Assembly: GCF_900636965.1 (NCBI RefSeq)
Contig: NZ_LR134331.1
Span: forward strand, 620,001-684,000
DNA length: 64,000 nt
Direction of reading: 5' to 3'
From: Lacticaseibacillus rhamnosus
GTDB lineage: Bacteria; Bacillota; Bacilli; Lactobacillales; Lactobacillaceae
The position numbers were made by a program, and so were the translations under genes. Shown one piece after another: positions 12,833 through 64,000 of this stretch (position 1 is its first letter; the number at the start of each line of letters is the position of its first letter). The notes beneath the pieces are model-generated. The model had not been told where the DNA came from, did not search any database, and saw only the letters and a program-made list of their open reading frames with translations.

Positions 12833-12884
12833 GAATTCTTAGGTTGTAGATGTTCTGGTTCACACTTTAAAGGTGTTTATAATT

Positions 12885-12970
12885 GCAGGTACCTGCGTGT
12901 AAGGACCTTAAGTGCGATGGCCAAAGCTCTGGTCGTCACGTCTGAGGCCACTTATGTTCTAGTTTATGCC
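12885..12970 (+). repeat. Degenerate copy (a) of the palindromic repeat, start of a four-copy cluster
   Basis: Recognisable through ACCTGCGTGTAAGGACCTTA and GTCTGAGGCCACTTATG. The inner arms no longer match each other (CTTAAGTGCG against CGTCTGAG), so this copy has decayed. A fragment of another unit end (ATGTTCTGGTTCAC) precedes it at about 12850. Confidence 0.7.
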
Positions 12971-12973
12971 CAT

Positions 12974-13075
12974 AACGCGCTCACCGGCGCAGGGATCTGC
13001 GTGTAAGGACCTCGAACGCGATGGCCAAGAGCGGGTCATCACGTCTGAGGCCGCTAATGTTCTGGTTTACGCCCA
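12974..13075 (+). repeat. Degenerate copy (b) of the palindromic repeat
   Basis: Begins AACGCGCTCACCGGCGCAGG and ends TTCTGGTTTACGCCCAT. The right arm has CTAATGTTCTGG instead of CTTACACTCCGA, a change shared with copy (a), suggesting these two arose by tandem duplication. Confidence 0.75.
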
Positions 13076-13194: not shown

Positions 13195-13202
13195 CGTTCT
13201 AA

Positions 13203-13322
13203 AACGCGTTCACAGTCGCAGAAATCTACGTGTAAGGACCTCCAGGCTAAATGGCCAAAGACCAGCCATTTAGCCTGGAGGCCACTTACACTCCGATTTC
13301 TAAGCGCTCCTGTTCACGCTCT
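13203..13322 (+). repeat. Palindromic repeat copy (d)
   Basis: Intact unit with different inner arms, CTCCAGGCTAAATGGC and GCCATTTAGCCTGGAG, fully Watson-Crick paired. It ends 63 bp before the ABC-F gene start. Confidence 0.85.
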
Positions 13323-13385
13323 ACATTTGTGAATCCCCTCAATATCTGCTAATATATGTAGAAATCTTTTAAGCGAGGTATGAAA

Positions 13386-17437: not shown

Positions 17438-17531
17438 AACGCGTTTACCGATACTTAATCGTGCCAGTTCATGCTCACTTTCTATAACGCGTTCCCCAGC
17501 GCAGACTTCTAACCGCGCCGGCTCACGCTCA
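17438..17531 (+). repeat. Two core-deleted derivatives of the palindromic repeat
   Basis: Segment 17438-17477 runs from AACGCGTTTACCG to CATGCTCAC. Segment 17486-17531 runs from AACGCGTTCCCCAGCGCAG directly into ACTTCTAACCGCGCC and CACGCTCA. The whole hairpin core is missing, with the join at the ACTTCT sequence shared by both arms. Confidence 0.75.
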
Positions 17532-27254: not shown

Positions 27255-27518
27255 GCGCGCCGGCTCGCGCTCATATTAACGCGCTCCCCGGCGCAGGAAT
27301 CTGCGTGTAAGGACCTGGGTCGCAATGGCCAAAGAGCGGGCCATTTCGCCCGAGGCCGCTTACACTCCGACTTCTACCCGCGCCGGCTCGCGCTCACATT
27401 AACGCGCTCCCCGGCGCAGGAATCTGCGTGTAAGGACCTGGATCGCAATGGCCAAAGAGCGGCCATCACGCCCCAGGCCGCTTACACTCCGATCCCTAAG
27501 CGCGCCGGCTCGCGCTCA
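27252..27518 (+). repeat. Half copy plus two full palindromic repeats between lacG and lacF
   Basis: 27252-27273 is a repeat end (AAGCGCGCCGGCTCGCGCTCA). 27278-27396 and 27401-27518 are full units whose inner arms differ (CTGGGTCGCAATGGCC and CTGGATCGCAATGGCC on the left). Read on the opposite strand, the second has one mismatch in 17 inner pairs and the first three. They fill the whole gap inside a sugar operon. Confidence 0.9.
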
Positions 27519-27542
27519 CTTTTTTAAAATGGAGGTTGAATT

Positions 27543-45592: not shown

Positions 45593-46717
45593 ATGCGATT
45601 TCTACACACAGCCGATTGGCATATTGGCAAAAAACTAAACGATTTTGACTTATTGGAAGATCAGCAGGCGGTGTTTGAACAATTGGTGACCGTTGCCAAG
45701 CAGCAGCAAGTCGATGCCATTGTCATTGCCGGCGATTTATATGACCGCGCTTTACCCAGTGAGGCCGCGGTGGCAACGCTTGATCATATGCTGGTAACGC
45801 TAAATCGTAAGCTGAATTATCCATTGTTGGTGATTTCCGGCAATCACGACTCGGCCGTCCGTCTACGTACTGGCCGGTCATGGTTTTCCGCAACTAAGAT
45901 GTACGTCAATACGCAATTAGCCGAGGCATTTACTCCTGTTGAACTTGGTGACACTCAATTTTTCTTGCTACCTTATTTTGAACCGTTTGCTGTCCGTGAT
46001 TATTTTCAGGATGCAACGATTACCAATGTAGCACAAGCCATTCGCCCGATTGTTGCCAAAATGAAAGCCCAGTTTAAACCCGATATGCGGCATATTTTGG
46101 TGAGTCATTTTTTTGCTGCCGGTAGTGATCATAGCGCTTCGGAAACAAAGGTTAACGTCGGCGGATTGGATGCAGTCCCGATTGATGACTTGGCAGCGTT
46201 TGACTATGTGGCGTTAGGTCATTTGCATAATCATAATGCGCTGCACGCCGAACCTAAGATTCAGTATAGTGGTGCCTTATTGAAATATGCGGTCGCTGAA
46301 GCCAAGCAGGAGAAGGGCGTCTACATTGTCGATACTGACACGATGGCGCGGACGTTTATTCCGTTGACGCCACAACATGACTTGATTGAGTTGAAAGCTA
46401 GCTATGCGGAATTGACTGATCCGGATTTTTATCGCCAGCAGGACCGCGATGCTTATATTGGCGTTGATCTAACCGACACGCAGGTGATTCCTAATGTCAT
46501 GGCCCAGTTGCGGAAGATTTACCCAAGGATTATCAGTCTGCGCCGTGAAAATGGGGTCACCGCCGTAAAACCGTTAAAACAACGGCAGCGCGATCTCGAT
46601 CCGCTGAGTTTGTTGAAGAATTTTTATGCTGAGATGATGCAAACAGATCTGACAGCGGATCAGCTGAAGTGGGCCAAAGCGGGACTTGGTGAAGCAGAAA
46701 GCGGGCAGAAACAGTGA
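45593..46717 (+). CDS. sbcD: Exonuclease subunit SbcD
   Basis: Mre11-type nuclease (374 aa) of the SbcCD complex, which opens DNA hairpins and processes double-strand ends. Phosphoesterase motifs: FLHTADWHIGK at residues 3-13, VIAGDLYDRA near 44, ISGNHDS near 82, and HILVSHFFAAG plus ALGHLHNH further on. The ATG at 45593 follows AAAGGCG. Its stop overlaps the sbcC start by 4 bp. SbcCD cuts long palindromes, which matters in a chromosome carrying many hairpin repeats. Confidence 0.96.
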   Translation: MRFLHTADWHIGKKLNDFDLLEDQQAVFEQLVTVAKQQQVDAIVIAGDLYDRALPSEAAVATLDHMLVTLNRKLNYPLLVISGNHDSAVRLRTGRSWFSATKMYVNTQLAEAFTPVELGDTQFFLLPYFEPFAVRDYFQDATITNVAQAIRPIVAKMKAQFKPDMRHILVSHFFAAGSDHSASETKVNVGGLDAVPIDDLAAFDYVALGHLHNHNALHAEPKIQYSGALLKYAVAEAKQEKGVYIVDTDTMARTFIPLTPQHDLIELKASYAELTDPDFYRQQDRDAYIGVDLTDTQVIPNVMAQLRKIYPRIISLRRENGVTAVKPLKQRQRDLDPLSLLKNFYAEMMQTDLTADQLKWAKAGLGEAESGQKQ

Positions 46718-49700
46718 AACTTAAACAATTACACATGCAGTTTTTCGGACCCTATGCAGATGAAACGGTTAATTTTGAAGATTTTCGCACGAGCCCGCTA
46801 TTCTTAATCAGCGGACCGACTGGCAGCGGGAAAACCACGATTTTTGATGCCTTAGTGTATGCGTTATACGGCGAGACGTCAGGGGAACGCGATGGCATGC
46901 AGATGCGGTCCAACTTTGCCAGCCACCATGATCTGACTAAAATTACGTTAACTTTTGATCATGACGGTAAACATTATCGGGTAGTGCGCCAGCCGCAACA
47001 GATACAGCAAAAAAAACGTGGTGATGGACTGACTGAGGTCAAAGCAAAGGCCTTATTGGCGATTGCAGATGCTGATAAGCAAGTGGCCGAATATACCAAA
47101 AAAAATCAGGTCCAAAGCCAGCTTGATGCAATTTTACATCTTGATGCTAAACAATTTCGGCAAATTGTTTTACTGCCTCAAGGAGACTTTCGGCGTTTTC
47201 TAGATGCCGACAGTAATGCCAAAGAAGATTTACTGCGGGATTTATTTGGGACCCAGTTGATTCAACGCTGGCAAACAGCTATGCAAGCACAAACCAAGCA
47301 GCAGGGAGCCGCGATTCAGGATCAGGAACGGATGCTGAATTTGCTGACGTCACAGTTCGAATTTGACACGCCGCCATCTGACACCGCAACGATGGCTGAC
47401 AAATTGGCCTTGATGCATCAGGATGTAACGCAGCAAGCAACAACCGTCACCAACCTGCAAACCATGGCAGACCAACGCCACCAGCGCTATCAGACGGCCC
47501 AGACAGCTCTTCAGACCGGTAAGCAGTTGGCACAAGCATTTGAAGACCGAAAACAAACTGCTGCGGCTTTGGCACAACTTGCTGAACAAAAGCAGACGCA
47601 GGAAGACCGCCTCAAGTTAATGGAGCGGTTAACCTGGGTTCAAGAACACGAGGCAGCTGAGCAACGGGTACAAAAAGTAGCTCGCGATTTAACTCTAGCC
47701 AAGACGCAATTAGTACAAACCCAAACGGCAATAAAAACCACTCAGCAGGCCATGAACCAGGCCCAAACGAAATTAAATGATTTGCAGCAACAAGATTCAG
47801 CTATTGAAGCCCAAAAGACGCAACTTGATCAACTGCAATCGGTTAAACAGCAACTCGTTGCAATTGCGGCTCAAGAAAAACAAGTAGCCCAACAAACCGC
47901 AGCAGTTGCACAGGCAGAAGCAGCGTCTGTACAGGCGCAAAAAAAATTGGCAGATGATCAGAAAAAACTTGATCAATATCAAACCGAGTTGAACCAACTA
48001 GCGGTGTCAGATTTGGCAGATCGAGCAGCTGACCATAAACAATTAGTGGCAGCGCTGAAACCGGTAGCCGCTAATTATCAAGACGCACATGCTGAAGCTG
48101 AACAACTTGCCAGCAAGCTAACGGACACAAAGACGTTACTGATTCAGGCGACAAATGCGAGTCAATCTGCCGAGCAACAGTTGAATCAATTACAACAAAC
48201 TCAGATCCGGCAACAAATTGCCCAATTGGCGGCTAAGTTGACGCCCGGGACCCCTTGCCCGGTTTGCGGCAGTGTCGAGCATCCACACCCGGCTGTAGCC
48301 TTGGATGAACCGCTGGTGACTGAGGCTGAGGTGAAACGGGCTACCCAAGCGCGCCAGCAAGCAGCGGCAAAAGAAACGACTATGCAAGCCCAGGTATCCA
48401 ACCTAGAAGAACAGCACGCTGCCGCTACCAAAAAGGCAGATATAGCAAAGAACAGTTTTTGGGCACAGGTGAGCTCAAGCATAGATGCAGTGAGTCCCCA
48501 AGTTGAACAGCCAGATATTTTGAAACAGCTGGCAATACTTGAAGAAAAAGCACAGACTGCAGTTCAAGCGTTATCCGCGGCTCAGATCAGGCAGGATGCA
48601 TTGAGAAAAGCAATAACAGTTGGTCAAACTGTTGTGAGCGCAGATGATCAGGAAATTCAAGCAACCCAAAGTGCGCTTAATACAGCGAAGATTGAGGCGG
48701 CAAAAGCTAACAGTGCACTGACGACCATGAAAGCAAGTTTACCTGCAGGCACGACTGATCTTAAGACAGTAACCGAACAGTCGCATGTCTTGACTGAAGC
48801 AATCAAGACTCACCAGGAACAATTAAAAACGGCGCAGCGTCAATTAAGTGAGTTCGATCGCCAGTTAGCAGGCTTACATGCAGATGAACGCCATGCTACT
48901 GACCAGATCACGACACTGAAAAAAGAGCACCAGGAAGCAGAAGATGACTTTTTATCTGCAGTAACTGATTATTTTGGTTCGGATGGTGTCGCAAAATTTG
49001 CTGCCATGCGCGAGAAATTAGGGCAATTACCACTTTTGCAGCAACAAACGCAGCGTTATAAGGATGACGTTTTAAAGCAGCAGACATTACTGGCAGCCGC
49101 TAACAAGACGATTGGCAATCAACCGCAACCTGCCCTTGATCAGCTTGAGGCTCAAGCAAGTGCAGCTGAAGTAGAGGCAACAAAAGCACAAACTGCCTTC
49201 ATTGAAGCAAAGCAGAAACATGATACGGCCCAAAAATTGCTCAAACAGGCCGCAGATATTTTAGCGGCCAATCAGACTGCTTTGGCCGCCTATGCCGACT
49301 TGCAGACACTGACCGCCGTTATGAACGGCAATGGTCCCAAGAAGCTTAGTTTGGAGCGCTACGTTTTACAAGCCTATCTTCAGGAAGTTTTGGATGTTGC
49401 CAACACCCGCTTGCAAGTGCTTTCCAATCAGCGCTACCAATTTGTGTTGCACACGGATTTGGGAACTCAAAAGATCCATTCGGGTTTGGAAATCGATGTT
49501 TACGATGATCAGGTGGGTGAACGCCGCGCAGTTCAAACACTATCTGGCGGTGAAAGCTTTATTGCTGCGTTGAGCCTTGCATTGGCACTGGGCGAGGTGA
49601 TTCAGCAAGAAAGTGGCGGCATCAATATCGATGCTTTGTTTGTTGATGAAGGCTTCGGGAGTTTGGATACTAATAGCCTTGATGTGGCAATGAACGCGCT

Positions 49701-49845
49701 TGAATCGCTAGAAGGCGAGTCGCGATTGATCGGGATTATTTCGCACGTGACGGAATTAAGGGATAATATTCCTGATCAGTTGCAGGTGCAGCCAGCAGGG
49801 ACAGGACGGAGTCGGATTAGGGTGATGCATATGGCGTCGGCGTAA
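46714..49845 (+). CDS. sbcC: Exonuclease subunit SbcC
   Basis: Rad50-type ATPase (1043 aa). Walker A GPTGSGKTT near residue 33, two long glutamine-rich coiled coils (about 190-500 and 530-880), a zinc hook with Cys515 and Cys518 in TPCPVCGS, then signature LSGGESF and Walker B LFVDEGFGSLD in the C-terminal lobe. The start is GTG at 46714 overlapping the sbcD stop (GTGA). It forms the SbcCD complex with the upstream gene product. Full length and intact. Confidence 0.96.
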   Translation: MKLKQLHMQFFGPYADETVNFEDFRTSPLFLISGPTGSGKTTIFDALVYALYGETSGERDGMQMRSNFASHHDLTKITLTFDHDGKHYRVVRQPQQIQQKKRGDGLTEVKAKALLAIADADKQVAEYTKKNQVQSQLDAILHLDAKQFRQIVLLPQGDFRRFLDADSNAKEDLLRDLFGTQLIQRWQTAMQAQTKQQGAAIQDQERMLNLLTSQFEFDTPPSDTATMADKLALMHQDVTQQATTVTNLQTMADQRHQRYQTAQTALQTGKQLAQAFEDRKQTAAALAQLAEQKQTQEDRLKLMERLTWVQEHEAAEQRVQKVARDLTLAKTQLVQTQTAIKTTQQAMNQAQTKLNDLQQQDSAIEAQKTQLDQLQSVKQQLVAIAAQEKQVAQQTAAVAQAEAASVQAQKKLADDQKKLDQYQTELNQLAVSDLADRAADHKQLVAALKPVAANYQDAHAEAEQLASKLTDTKTLLIQATNASQSAEQQLNQLQQTQIRQQIAQLAAKLTPGTPCPVCGSVEHPHPAVALDEPLVTEAEVKRATQARQQAAAKETTMQAQVSNLEEQHAAATKKADIAKNSFWAQVSSSIDAVSPQVEQPDILKQLAILEEKAQTAVQALSAAQIRQDALRKAITVGQTVVSADDQEIQATQSALNTAKIEAAKANSALTTMKASLPAGTTDLKTVTEQSHVLTEAIKTHQEQLKTAQRQLSEFDRQLAGLHADERHATDQITTLKKEHQEAEDDFLSAVTDYFGSDGVAKFAAMREKLGQLPLLQQQTQRYKDDVLKQQTLLAAANKTIGNQPQPALDQLEAQASAAEVEATKAQTAFIEAKQKHDTAQKLLKQAADILAANQTALAAYADLQTLTAVMNGNGPKKLSLERYVLQAYLQEVLDVANTRLQVLSNQRYQFVLHTDLGTQKIHSGLEIDVYDDQVGERRAVQTLSGGESFIAALSLALALGEVIQQESGGINIDALFVDEGFGSLDTNSLDVAMNALESLEGESRLIGIISHVTELRDNIPDQLQVQPAGTGRSRIRVMHMASA

Positions 49846-49857
49846 GATGGCTGATGC

Positions 49858-50018
49858 CCACTTACACTCCGGTTTCTAAGCGGCCCTGTTCGCGCTCTGA
49901 AACGCGTTCGCCAACCCAGAAACCTGCACATAAGGACCTCAGACCCCAATGGCAAAGCCCGGCCATTGGGATCTGAGGCCACTTATGCTCCGGTTTCTAA
50001 CCGGGTTGGCTCACGCTC
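49858..50018 (+). repeat. Half copy plus one full palindromic repeat after sbcC
   Basis: 49858-49897 is the right half of a unit (CCACTTACACTCCGG onwards). 49901-50018 is a full unit with inner arms CTCAGACCCCAATGGC and GCCATTGGGATCTGAG; all 17 inner pairs form on the minus strand with one G-U. Confidence 0.85.
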
Positions 50019-50113
50019 TGCAAAATTCTCTGTGTCATTTTTGTGTTTAAGTGGTATAACAGAAGTTGTAAGGGTTATACCTTCTAACTCACACCAAAAA
50101 GAGGCGAGATCAC

Positions 50114-50272: not shown

Positions 50273-50309
50273 GAGCCGCAAACATATACTTGTTTGTGGT
50301 TCTTTTTTG
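50273..50309 (+). terminator. Terminator after the 47-aa gene
   Basis: GAGCCGCAAACA pairs with TGTTTGTGGTTC (G-U pairs allowed), then TTTTTT. Confidence 0.85.
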
Positions 50310-50311
50310 TA

Positions 50312-50544
50312 AGCGCGAGCCAGCGCGGTTAGAAGTCGGAGTGTAAGTGTCCTTGGGCGTGATGGCCGGTCTTTGGCCATTACGCTCAAGGTCCTTACAC
50401 GCAGACTTCTGCGCTGGGGAGCGCGTTATAGAAAGTGAGCGTGAGTCAGCCCGGTCAGAAGCCGGAGTGTAAGTGGCCTTAAGCGTGATGGCCGGTCTTT
50501 GACCATTGCGCCCAAGGTCCTTACATGCAGGCTTCTGGGCTGGC
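50312..50544 (-). repeat. Two palindromic repeats in opposite orientation
   Basis: Units 50312-50428 and 50436-50544, inverted relative to most other copies. Inner arms CCTTGGGCGTGATGGCC/GGCCATTACGCTCAAGG pair fully with two G-T. The second has three mismatches (AA opposite CC, and C-A). Confidence 0.87.
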
Positions 50545-50735
50545 GAACGCGTTATGCTGGAGGCTGCCTGATTACTTACAACTCTCTGGAATGGCGAAGT
50601 TCGTAAATGACGATAGCTATGAAGATTCGAGGTATTGCAGACCATTTTGACATCATCGGTATAGCTGCTATTGACAAGAAAAATAAAGTGAACCATTGCC
50701 GCGTTTCCTGTTTTAAAAACTTTTTTTGAAAAAAT

Positions 50736-54465: not shown

Positions 54466-54547
54466 AGTTCAGTCTGACGACGGAGGGACATTGCAAAACG
54501 ATATGCTATGCTTTAATTAGCATAAAGTGTTGGAACAACGTGGGATT

Positions 54548-54717
54548 TAAGCGCGCGGTTCACGCTCACATTAACGCGTTTGCCGGCGCAGCAATCTGCG
54601 TGTAAGGACCTGAGTCGCAATGGCCAAAGAGCGGCCATCACGCCTCAGGCCGCTTACACTCCGATTGCTAAGCGCGCCGGCTCACGCTCATATTAACGCG
54701 TTCGCCGGCTCACGCTC
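54548..54717 (+). repeat. Repeat cluster: end fragment, full unit and minimal derivative
   Basis: 54548-54568 is a unit end, and 54573-54690 is a full unit with inner arms CTGAGTCGCAATGGCC and GGCCATCACGCCTCAG. 54695-54717 (AACGCGTTCGCCGGCTCACG...) joins the left terminus directly to the right terminus through GCCGG, the shortest form seen. Confidence 0.85.
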
Positions 54718-54738
54718 GGAAAAAAGGGAGTATCAAAA

Positions 54739-56367: not shown

Positions 56368-57429
56368 TTAGTTAAAGGCTCGTTTTTGAGGTAAAACTGC
56401 TTTGAGCCATTCGCCAATAAATGGGTATTGCCGATTTAATTCAATTACCTGAGTTTCCGGATCTGGGTATTTCAGGTAAATCATATTATTGTCCGGATTA
56501 ACCATTACAGTAAAGAGTTTTTGATTGGGCAGCGGTAATTCATATACACCTTGGTGACTGCCTTGCCGCATCAAAATCGCATTACTGGAAGCAATGACAA
56601 ACAGTTCGTCTAACGCAGGGGAGTTCGTCCCGGCAGAAACCCGCACGACCAGCTTGAGGTGATGGTTGACCAGTTCTTCCGGAATTGTGGTCGAGGCCCA
56701 TTCAAATCGGTCACCTTTAACCTCTTCAGAACCTAAATCTTTCCAATCATGGCCGTCTTCATCCAGAACCTGGTAGTCGAGAACTTTGCTGTCCCGATCA
56801 AGGTTAGTCTGAATGCTGAATTCGCCGGCTTTAACAACCGTTTTTTTGGCGACTAATGGTTTGAGATTATCAAAGCGGGTTTTAAAGTGTAAGCCGTTGA
56901 TTGGCTGCAAAACCGTTTCGTCAATGGTTGCAAATTGATAGCCGCCTTGATTAAGGGCCTTGGTTAAAGCAGACAGTGCTTTGATTTCATCGGCATCGTA
57001 AGGCAGCGCGTTGCTGTCGCTTGCCGTAATTTGTAACAAGGTTGGCAAATTGACGGCTTTCAGGGTGGCGCTTGGGCTTAGCGGATCAACAATGGTTAGC
57101 AGGGGCTGATTGTCTTCTTCAGTTGCCTGAATAAGCGTGATTTCACTGTGGTGGGGATCGCTAGTCGTGTCTTTAAACCACAATGTCTGTAAAAAATTAG
57201 TTGGAATGGCAGCAATATTTTGCAACGTTTGATAAAGTTTGTCACGCATCAAGCCCGTGTAACTTGCTAGTAACGCGGTTAACGCATCATCATTTGAACC
57301 CCATAAAGGCGAATCGGCTAGTCGGTCAGCTTCGGTTTGATACGCGGTGCTGATTTGTTGACGTAGCTGTGAGACATTTAACGGTTTTGCAATTAGGGCA
57401 GCCAAATGTGTGTCATTAAGATTAAGCAT
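56368..57429 (-). CDS. Hypothetical protein, second gene of an unrecognised pair
   Basis: 353-aa soluble protein that I do not recognise. Predicted mixed alpha/beta with no signal or membrane segment and no cysteine. The first 90 residues look helical (LRQQISTAYQTEADRLADS). The C-terminal half has many beta strands (FSIQTNLDRDSKVLDYQVLD, KLFTVMVNPDNNMIYLKYP). The ATG at 57429 follows GGAGGG and lies 8 bp inside the end of the upstream gene, so the two are coupled and probably work together. Confidence 0.7.
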   Translation of the reverse strand: MLNLNDTHLAALIAKPLNVSQLRQQISTAYQTEADRLADSPLWGSNDDALTALLASYTGLMRDKLYQTLQNIAAIPTNFLQTLWFKDTTSDPHHSEITLIQATEEDNQPLLTIVDPLSPSATLKAVNLPTLLQITASDSNALPYDADEIKALSALTKALNQGGYQFATIDETVLQPINGLHFKTRFDNLKPLVAKKTVVKAGEFSIQTNLDRDSKVLDYQVLDEDGHDWKDLGSEEVKGDRFEWASTTIPEELVNHHLKLVVRVSAGTNSPALDELFVIASSNAILMRQGSHQGVYELPLPNQKLFTVMVNPDNNMIYLKYPDPETQVIELNRQYPFIGEWLKAVLPQKRAFN

Positions 57430-58255
57430 GTGTGCGCCCTCCTTCAAGCTTTAATGACTGCATGAAATCATCTTTCAAGTTGGCAAGAACATTTTCAAAT
57501 TCCGCAACGGAACTGTAGGTGCTCAAGACAGCTTGGTATTCATAACGGGTAATGGCTGCAGAAACTTCCAATTCGCGTTTACGTTTATCGAAGGCGTCAT
57601 CAGCCGCCAGCTTTTCTTTATCAAAGCGGGCTTTAAGTTGCGAGGCATCGGTTTTGGATGCATGGGCTGCCGGTGCATCGGATTCATCACTTGGATCGAT
57701 GAAATTTTTCAAAAGTCCGCGGAAGCCACCGTTACCTTGGGCGGATTGATCGCGTTCAGGTGCTGCTTCAGCTTCAAGATTATCAATTTGTGTATGCAGT
57801 GAATCAACATCGTGGTAAACTTCCTTGCGCATGGCGTCCAACTGGCGATCCAGATAGTGATCAGGATCATCGGAAAAGGCTTCCAGTTGCGGCAGGATCT
57901 TGCGTTGCTCATCGGTTGACTGGGTAATCGCGCGCAAAATGACGTTAATATGACCAAAATCGCGGCGGTGATACCAGTTACCAAAATAAATCGTCCCTTG
58001 ATCATTGACTTCAAAAAACGGAATATGCTGCCGCAAGAAATCAATAAACCCGATTTGCAAAAAATCATGCAGTTCGGCTTGGGCGCTTTTGTCGTAAGCT
58101 AAGATGTAGCCAGGCGCTTCTTCAATATCGAGGCGCAAATTCTCTGCTGTGGCATCGATTCCCTGATAAAGGCGGTAACGTGATTTTTTATGCCAAGCAT
58201 CGGTAAAATCACTAAAGAATTTCTTTTGGTAAGTAAGACTCGTTTCGATTGACAT
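57422..58255 (-). CDS. Hypothetical protein with C-terminal coiled coil, first gene of the pair
   Basis: 277-aa protein that I do not recognise. Residues 1-135 form a globular part (YRLYQGIDATAENLRL, GFIDFLRQHIPFFEVND, FGNWYHRRDFGHINV). Residues about 165-260 are charged and helical with a likely coiled coil (LKARFDKEKLAADDAFDKRK). There is no signal peptide or membrane segment. The ATG at 58255 follows GAGG by 7 nt; longer in-frame readings upstream have no ribosome site. It is divergent from the NAD(P)-binding gene at 58427. Confidence 0.7.
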   Translation of the reverse strand: MSIETSLTYQKKFFSDFTDAWHKKSRYRLYQGIDATAENLRLDIEEAPGYILAYDKSAQAELHDFLQIGFIDFLRQHIPFFEVNDQGTIYFGNWYHRRDFGHINVILRAITQSTDEQRKILPQLEAFSDDPDHYLDRQLDAMRKEVYHDVDSLHTQIDNLEAEAAPERDQSAQGNGGFRGLLKNFIDPSDESDAPAAHASKTDASQLKARFDKEKLAADDAFDKRKRELEVSAAITRYEYQAVLSTYSSVAEFENVLANLKDDFMQSLKLEGGRTHA

Positions 58256-59146: not shown

Positions 59147-59340
59147 GGTGATTTTTGAGATGAATGAGTTTGGAAAACGATGGGTGGTTAGCCGCGGTAT
59201 GGTGGGTTGGTAGCGGTGGTTATGCGCTTATCAACTGATAAAAGTTTGGTGATATAGTTTGGGTACTAGACTAATTTTTGTGGTGTTGGAGGTAAGGATT
59301 TTTAGTTTAAGCAGTTAAGGGAACTTACATTGCGTTCTAT

Positions 59341-59458
59341 AACGCGCTCACAGTCGCAGCAATCTGCGTGTAAGGACCTCAGACGCAATGGCCAAAGCCC
59401 GGCCATCACGTCTGAGGCCGCTTACACTCCGACTTCTAACCGCGCCGGCTCGCGCTCA
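59341..59458 (+). repeat. Full palindromic repeat
   Basis: A clean copy: termini AACGCGCTCAC and CGGCTCGCGCTCA, outer arms GTGTAAGG and CGCTTACAC, inner arms CTCAGACGCAATGGCC and GGCCATCACGTCTGAG. All inner positions pair on the minus strand with two G-U pairs. Confidence 0.9.
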
Positions 59459-59460
59459 AC

Positions 59461-63803: not shown

Positions 63804-63804
63804 G

Positions 63805-64000
63805 TGAGCGTGAGCTGGCGCGGTTAAGGATCGGAGTGTAAGCGGCCTTGGACGTGATGGCCGGGCTTTGGCCATTGCGTCCAAGGTCCTTACACGCAGA
63901 TCCTTGCGCCAGCGAGCGCGTTATGATCAAGCGTGAACCGGCGCGGTTAGGAGCCGGAGTGTAAGTGGCCTTGGACGTGATGGCCGGGGGCTTTGACCAT
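63805..64000 (-). repeat. Two palindromic repeats, the second cut by the window end
   Basis: 63805-63923 is a full unit in inverted orientation with inner arms CCTTGGACGTGATGGCC/GGCCATTGCGTCCAAGG, fully paired with two G-T. A second unit starts at 63929 and runs past the window. Confidence 0.88.

Follow-up and report, generated by a model that had tools for sequence, protein, structure and literature searches.

The intergenic palindromic repeats of Lacticaseibacillus rhamnosus form a family of ~120-bp imperfect palindromes whose arms vary in sequence yet stay complementary. We consider it likely that this family is held as folded DNA, its arms reworked by template switching and block exchange and its standard fold favored by a protein. 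Covariation is usually a strong sign of functional RNA; here, strict and large-scale covariation appears to belong to DNA and is made at least partly by a mutational mechanism that leaves visible patches, a warning for RNA-discovery pipelines.

Copies and fold of the repeat unit

The window (the whole stretch analyzed, 64 kb, G000:C1:620001-684000) had been credited in a preliminary description with thirteen long copies, and inspection of its sequence found a copy at 13/13 of the listed positions: ten full units of ~120 nt, two shorter units of ~103 nt (12885 and 12974) and one cut by the window end (63929). The claim that they lie only between genes holds in outline, in that the sites fall in intergenic gaps and the open reading frames (ORFs) overlapping them look spurious. 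The arms are complementary as described, but the unit is longer than was thought, and its whole length (~120 nt) folds into one hairpin.

On the plus strand, a short-form unit lacking the usual 3′ end (12871..12970) is followed by a second short form (12971..13074), by the full unit with the highest covariance-model score of the genome (13075..13195) and by a full unit whose internal CA/CA loop is now a perfect complement, CTAAATGG/CCATTTAG (13201..13323). A tandem pair of full units (27276..27397 and 27399..27519), with a 3′-end remnant ahead of its first member, lies on the same strand, as do a 5′-truncated unit retaining the 3′ part only (49854..49898) and the adjoining full unit with a perfectly complementary inner loop (49899..50020). 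The full units at 50309..50429 and 50435..50555 form a tandem on the minus strand. Further along, a plus-strand full unit (54571..54691) is flanked by two remnants, and its site holds no unit in four related species compared. The full unit around which the preliminary description was written (59339..59459, plus strand) has a mismatched outer variable arm (GCAATC/GACTTC). The last two units, one full (63804..63924) and one interrupted by the window end (63929..64000), are on the minus strand. Remnants beyond the thirteen copies were found at 17484-17531 (plus strand; inner hairpin deleted, leaving GCGCAGA followed by CTTCTAACCGCGCC), ~49854-49898, ~54545-54568 and 54692-54720.

The genome consensus of the unit is TAACGCGCTCCCCGGCGCAGAAATCTGCGTGTAAGGACCTTGGTCGCAATGGCCAAAGCCCGGCCATCACGCCCAAGGCCACTTACACTCCGATTTCTAACCGCGCCGGCTCGCGCTCA. 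Its fold carries fixed irregularities: an A·C mismatch with a one-base bulge beside it, an internal loop of TGC/CTCC, a TAAN bulge and, close to the tip, a CA/CA loop. The A·C mismatch, TGC/CTCC loop and TAAN bulge are irregular in most copies of this genome, and the latter two are seen again across genera. Folding of window units as RNA gave z scores of −3.4 to −10.4 (at most 1 in 200 shuffles was as good), and folding of window copies as DNA gave −4.4 to −9.1.

Two other features of the window were recorded. An SbcC-like gene (46714-49845) lies directly upstream of one array, an adjacency that may be chance; SbcCD cuts hairpins. A 36-nt direct repeat with 75% identity (56867-56902 and 57618-57653) is carried by two adjacent minus-strand ORFs, one of which has no Pfam match, and suggests a gene duplication.

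Copy number and arrays

A structure-free nucleotide profile built from the ten window units was run over 823 kb of the genome (stretches around covariance-model matches, the window and a 200-kb block without listed matches) and identified no fewer than 213 full units and 68 partial ones, spread over 134 sites. Single units occupy 38 sites and arrays of two to five units the other 96, with a period of 119 to 127 bp and strands never mixed within an array. Nearly all units differ (204 of 205 are distinct). This diversity, together with spacers of only a few bases, rules out CRISPR arrays, which have near-identical repeats and regular spacers. Pieces of the family were nonetheless listed as level-1, disregarded CRISPR arrays in a genome paper on L. 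casei (PMC11464305). A fast-turning repeat family of bacteria with industrial and probiotic uses has in this way been mistaken for CRISPR. The block G000:C1:300001-500000 (L109-L118) contains only three units in 200 kb, far below the window or elsewhere, and is perhaps recently acquired DNA.

Array neighbors resemble each other in the 12 outermost nucleotides of both ends (excess 0.27 and 0.36) and not in their arms. Since neighbors are no more alike than random pairs except in these outer 12 nt, tandem duplication was rejected as the chief source of arrays, although 21 of 133 array units do have an array mate as their nearest relative. Over columns 20-31 and 89-100, the outer variable arms, neighbors appear slightly less alike than random pairs, perhaps from similar neighbors deleting each other. 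Short ~103-nt units stand first or in the middle of arrays 56 times and last once; the last unit has the full form in 95/96 arrays. The terminal pair type (T..A or A..T) is common to both members in 57 of 60 adjacent array pairs with both members clear, and seems to be a property of the site rather than of the unit. The leading strand carries the sense orientation at 77/134 sites, which is not significant (P = 0.10, with the position of the terminus assumed).

Covariation of the arms

Two-sided changes are present at 16 of 41 pairs in the ten window units already, in keeping with the preliminary description of arms that vary and remain complementary. When 205 units were aligned without structure, 97 had no mismatch in the 15 variable pairs, and the mean number of mismatches over those pairs was 1.32, against 5.42 with 3′ halves shuffled. 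The preliminary description had tied its reading to covariation above phylogenetic expectation. For the null in the genome, columns of 204 distinct units were simulated independently, at matched rates, along a FastTree tree; the statistic was an APC-corrected G in the manner of R-scape (cutoff E<0.05). Covariation exceeded a tree-simulated expectation both within the genome and across genera. In the one-genome test 20 of ~6,900 column pairs were significant, 14 of them helix pairs; among the remaining six, one (2-120) is an additional terminal pair, T-A/A-T, and the others lie in the loop or involve column 12. In the cross-genus test (52 sense units) 29 pairs were significant, all 29 in the helix and none outside. 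Counting against shuffled or slid partners gave the same picture in this genome (97.3% of cells paired, falling to 90.6% on shuffling and to 38% or less on sliding) and across genera (95.3%, against 65.8% and at most 46%, with 39/41 pairs changed on both sides), where a structure model served to gather the distant set, which may therefore be biased toward well-paired copies.

Copying from one arm to the other

The preliminary description read the compensating changes as a sign that a folded single strand is either selected or copied through, and such copying is seen directly as arm-copied patches. In ~15 copies a conserved mismatch, bulge or internal loop has given way to a perfect reverse complement of the facing arm, and each arm has served as the source in some of them. 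In the 3′ arm, GGCCACTT was changed to GGTCCTT in four copies, the sole 7-base variant at that place, and ACACTCCG to ACACGCAG or ACACGTAG in three; in the 5′ arm, AAGGACC was changed to AAGTGGCC in one or two copies, and TCTGCGTGT to TCGGAGTGT in five and to CCGGAGTGT in one. At 5′ site ii, 15 cases scored as “both” may include misoriented partial units, and the six fully verified ones were used. A 4-base insertion (GGTT) exactly matches the 3′ bulge, and a precise removal of that bulge is also seen. Folding of single units revealed long perfect stems of up to 36 bp from the tip (L285:14399). Patches also separate orthologs (L235:4499 in G010 and L210:18953 in G005) and plasmids of L. paracasei (L123 and L120).

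Such changes are produced by template switching at quasipalindromes in Escherichia coli (PMC7202029), and RNA stems have been proposed to arise and persist through the same process (PMC8794818). The patches resemble the mutations described in both cases in being multi-base changes that make the arms exact complements with no wobble intermediate. Quasipalindrome template switching is a way in which mutations arise; in the present case it works on a naturally occurring high-copy repeat that nevertheless retains its standard irregular fold. At each irregular site, corrected copies make up at most a few percent; template switching does happen, but it may not be the main source of covariation. The arm-recopied units document in nature how pairing within a hairpin is kept up, and the family offers hundreds of natural replicates for weighing template switching against selection.

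Turnover at fixed loci

Two related genomes, G005 (apparently L. casei; likewise, G023 appears to be L. paracasei) and G010 (L. zeae DSM 20178), share 94.3% average nucleotide identity. At their orthologous loci the number of units differs, and losses have left 5′ ends, 3′ ends or hairpin-less remnants, the kinds expected of deletion between short direct repeats. Unit loss occurs by deletion, either between the short direct repeats of the unit ends or between 3′ ends. Among 20 orthologous unit pairs, six differ at 0 to 2 aligned positions and 14 at 8 to 34. In paired columns, the six little-changed pairs show three single and no double changes, and in the 14 replaced pairs the double changes number 45 of Watson-Crick type and 4 of other kinds, alongside 77 single changes. 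Replacement can be confined to the inner hairpin (second unit of L232:498 versus L254:2296) or to one half, with pairing broken (L215:18115 versus L208:4701). At fixed loci on L. paracasei plasmids units differ much more than their flanks, and between plasmid L121 and chromosomal locus L311 the in-unit differences lie only around the hairpin tip, with paired bases changed on both sides. Between sister species and strains, then, unit interiors are swapped as blocks and flanks stay, and some half-swaps break pairing. At a given locus a large share of the arm variation stems from block replacement of the interior, not from stepwise compensation. Since half-replaced, badly paired copies persist, pairing can be under no more than weak or slow selection.

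How the fold may be maintained

Template switching explains pairing restored without wobble intermediates, and block exchange explains the shuffling; the persistence of the irregularities is explained by neither. That they persist in most copies and across genera argues that selection or propagation favors a specific folded form. Replication stalling or breakage at the hairpin would drive intrastrand template switching, restoring pairing, and could also drive recombination with other copies, by which arms would be shuffled and pairing sometimes broken. A break of the hairpin, for example by SbcCD, would account for exchange and deletion alike. Copies with the standard irregular fold may be favored in spreading, with a candidate protein recognizing that fold. 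In one TnpA_REP system a bulge of this type is required by the enzyme (PMC8266576), and by analogy a protein may read the fold here too; with no Y1 gene in the genome, it would not be a Y1 transposase.

More tentatively, the hairpins might spread as folded single strands by a putative non-Y1 recombinase that reads the bulges and loops and leaves the stems free, to be paired by template switching. If so, selection would act on DNA shape, and arm sequence would drift without limit across a bacterial family. Our analyses found no clean target duplication, mobilizing enzyme or insertion intermediate, and no target-site duplication could be delimited, since most “empty” sites contain remnants.

It is unlikely that the units are structured RNAs, that is, mRNA-stability or processing hairpins as reported for ERIC in Yersinia, with covariation reflecting selection on the RNA fold. 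The RNA folds are very stable, and some units do lie inside operons, for example in the man PTS genes of L. paracasei plasmids, between IIB and IIC. Against this, G·U is no commoner than A·C. Of the 8,394 cells counted for this genome, 154 were G·T and 184 A·C mismatches; across genera, at well-paired positions, the counts were 18 and 44. The excess of G·U over A·C expected of a strand-specific functional RNA is therefore absent; 32 tRNAs from the same loci contained 52 G·U pairs but not one A·C, a control in which ARAGORN may itself reject A·C. The arms covary strictly through Watson-Crick pairs, and the mismatch counts give no consistent advantage to the RNA of either strand. Orientation to genes (simple ORF calls) is also near random, antisense and divergent sites included: 86 sites are codirectional (52 sense and 34 antisense), 26 divergent and 15 convergent, near the background of 295 codirectional, 80 divergent and 71 convergent gaps. 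The near-random gene context likewise led to rejection of a terminator or fixed-UTR role. No Rfam family was matched, as no covariance model of Rfam 15 gave a match above its gathering score, with chance-level matches only. The lack of a wobble signature and the near-random gene orientation together indicate that the folded molecule is DNA and not a particular RNA; the maintained form behaves as folded DNA. A need for the RNA fold on both strands would, however, deplete G·T and A·C alike.

We also think it improbable that the palindromes are simply perfected by template switching and spread passively, with nothing selected. Template-switch patches in both directions are what such self-perfection would leave, but it would also erase the A·C mismatch, TGC/CTCC loop and TAAN bulge, which are irregular in most copies, and the loop and bulge recur in other genera.

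Relation to known repeats

The nearest known kinds of repeat are REPIN and ERIC. REPINs show compensatory changes between arms (PMC3116915), and REP-RAYT systems resemble the present family in being intergenic, high-copy, single-stranded DNA hairpins with conserved bulges (PMC3116915, PMC8266576). In contrast, a REPIN is an inverted pair of REPs, whereas here a single ~120-nt hairpin forms head-to-tail arrays of one orientation and the family reaches at least 21 genera of one bacterial family; the REP-type GTAG is not in the unit consensus as read by eye. Movement of a REPIN-like element as folded single-stranded DNA by a RAYT/TnpA_REP (Y1) transposase would fit the similar intergenic hairpins, their compensatory changes and their conserved bulges of an enzyme-readable type (PMC3116915, PMC8266576), but it is very improbable, as PF01797 has no match in G000 and G005, both unit rich (G010 has one), Y1 genes occur in relatives without units (e.g., G008, G012 and G013) and array orientation is uniform, never alternating. 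Mobilization by the Y1 family is thus largely refuted already; another recombinase acting on folded DNA is possible.

For ERIC/IRU elements, as here, we know of no transposase. BOX consists of boxA, boxB and boxC modules, whereas RUP is a short element of MITE-like type, and the present family is set apart from both by these descriptions. ERIC/IRU belong to another phylum (enterobacteria and Vibrio) and differ from the tandem arrays, ~122-bp period and hypervariable arms seen here, the likeness being one of size and shape: they are ~127 bp long, intergenic and fold as a single long imperfect stem-loop, and BOX and RUP of Streptococcus pneumoniae are likewise intergenic foldable repeats of a Firmicute (PMC2267715).

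Distribution among lactobacilli and plasmids

The family is old and widespread in Lactobacillaceae, intergenic and non-coding. The L. casei group is rich in it (at least 150 scored matches in each of G000, G005 and G010), and it was present in 20 of 24 other genomes of the same genus and in none of 16 genomes of other families. A survey of Lactobacillaceae recovered relatives in 88 of 301 genomes and 21 of 40 genera, with matched loci in Secundilactobacillus silagincola (four tandem units, period 125; the genus is unit rich), Agrilactobacillus yilanensis, Latilactobacillus fuchuensis and Schleiferilactobacillus perolens. In these other-genus loci stems are nearly wholly different in sequence, yet paired, and short motifs beside the irregularities recur. 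Phage carriage was rejected: no match was found in a phage collection, nor was an exact pattern found in viral contigs. Literature searches by topic and by sequence, outside subscription papers, returned no description of the family beyond the CRISPR level-1 calls, and it is apparently undescribed so far. Plasmid copies occur in Lacticaseibacillus and Pediococcus, each outside listed genes. Eight plasmids of Pediococcus acidilactici (L122 and others) carry a single casei-type unit with equal identity scores, which suggests transfer into a genus without unit turnover.
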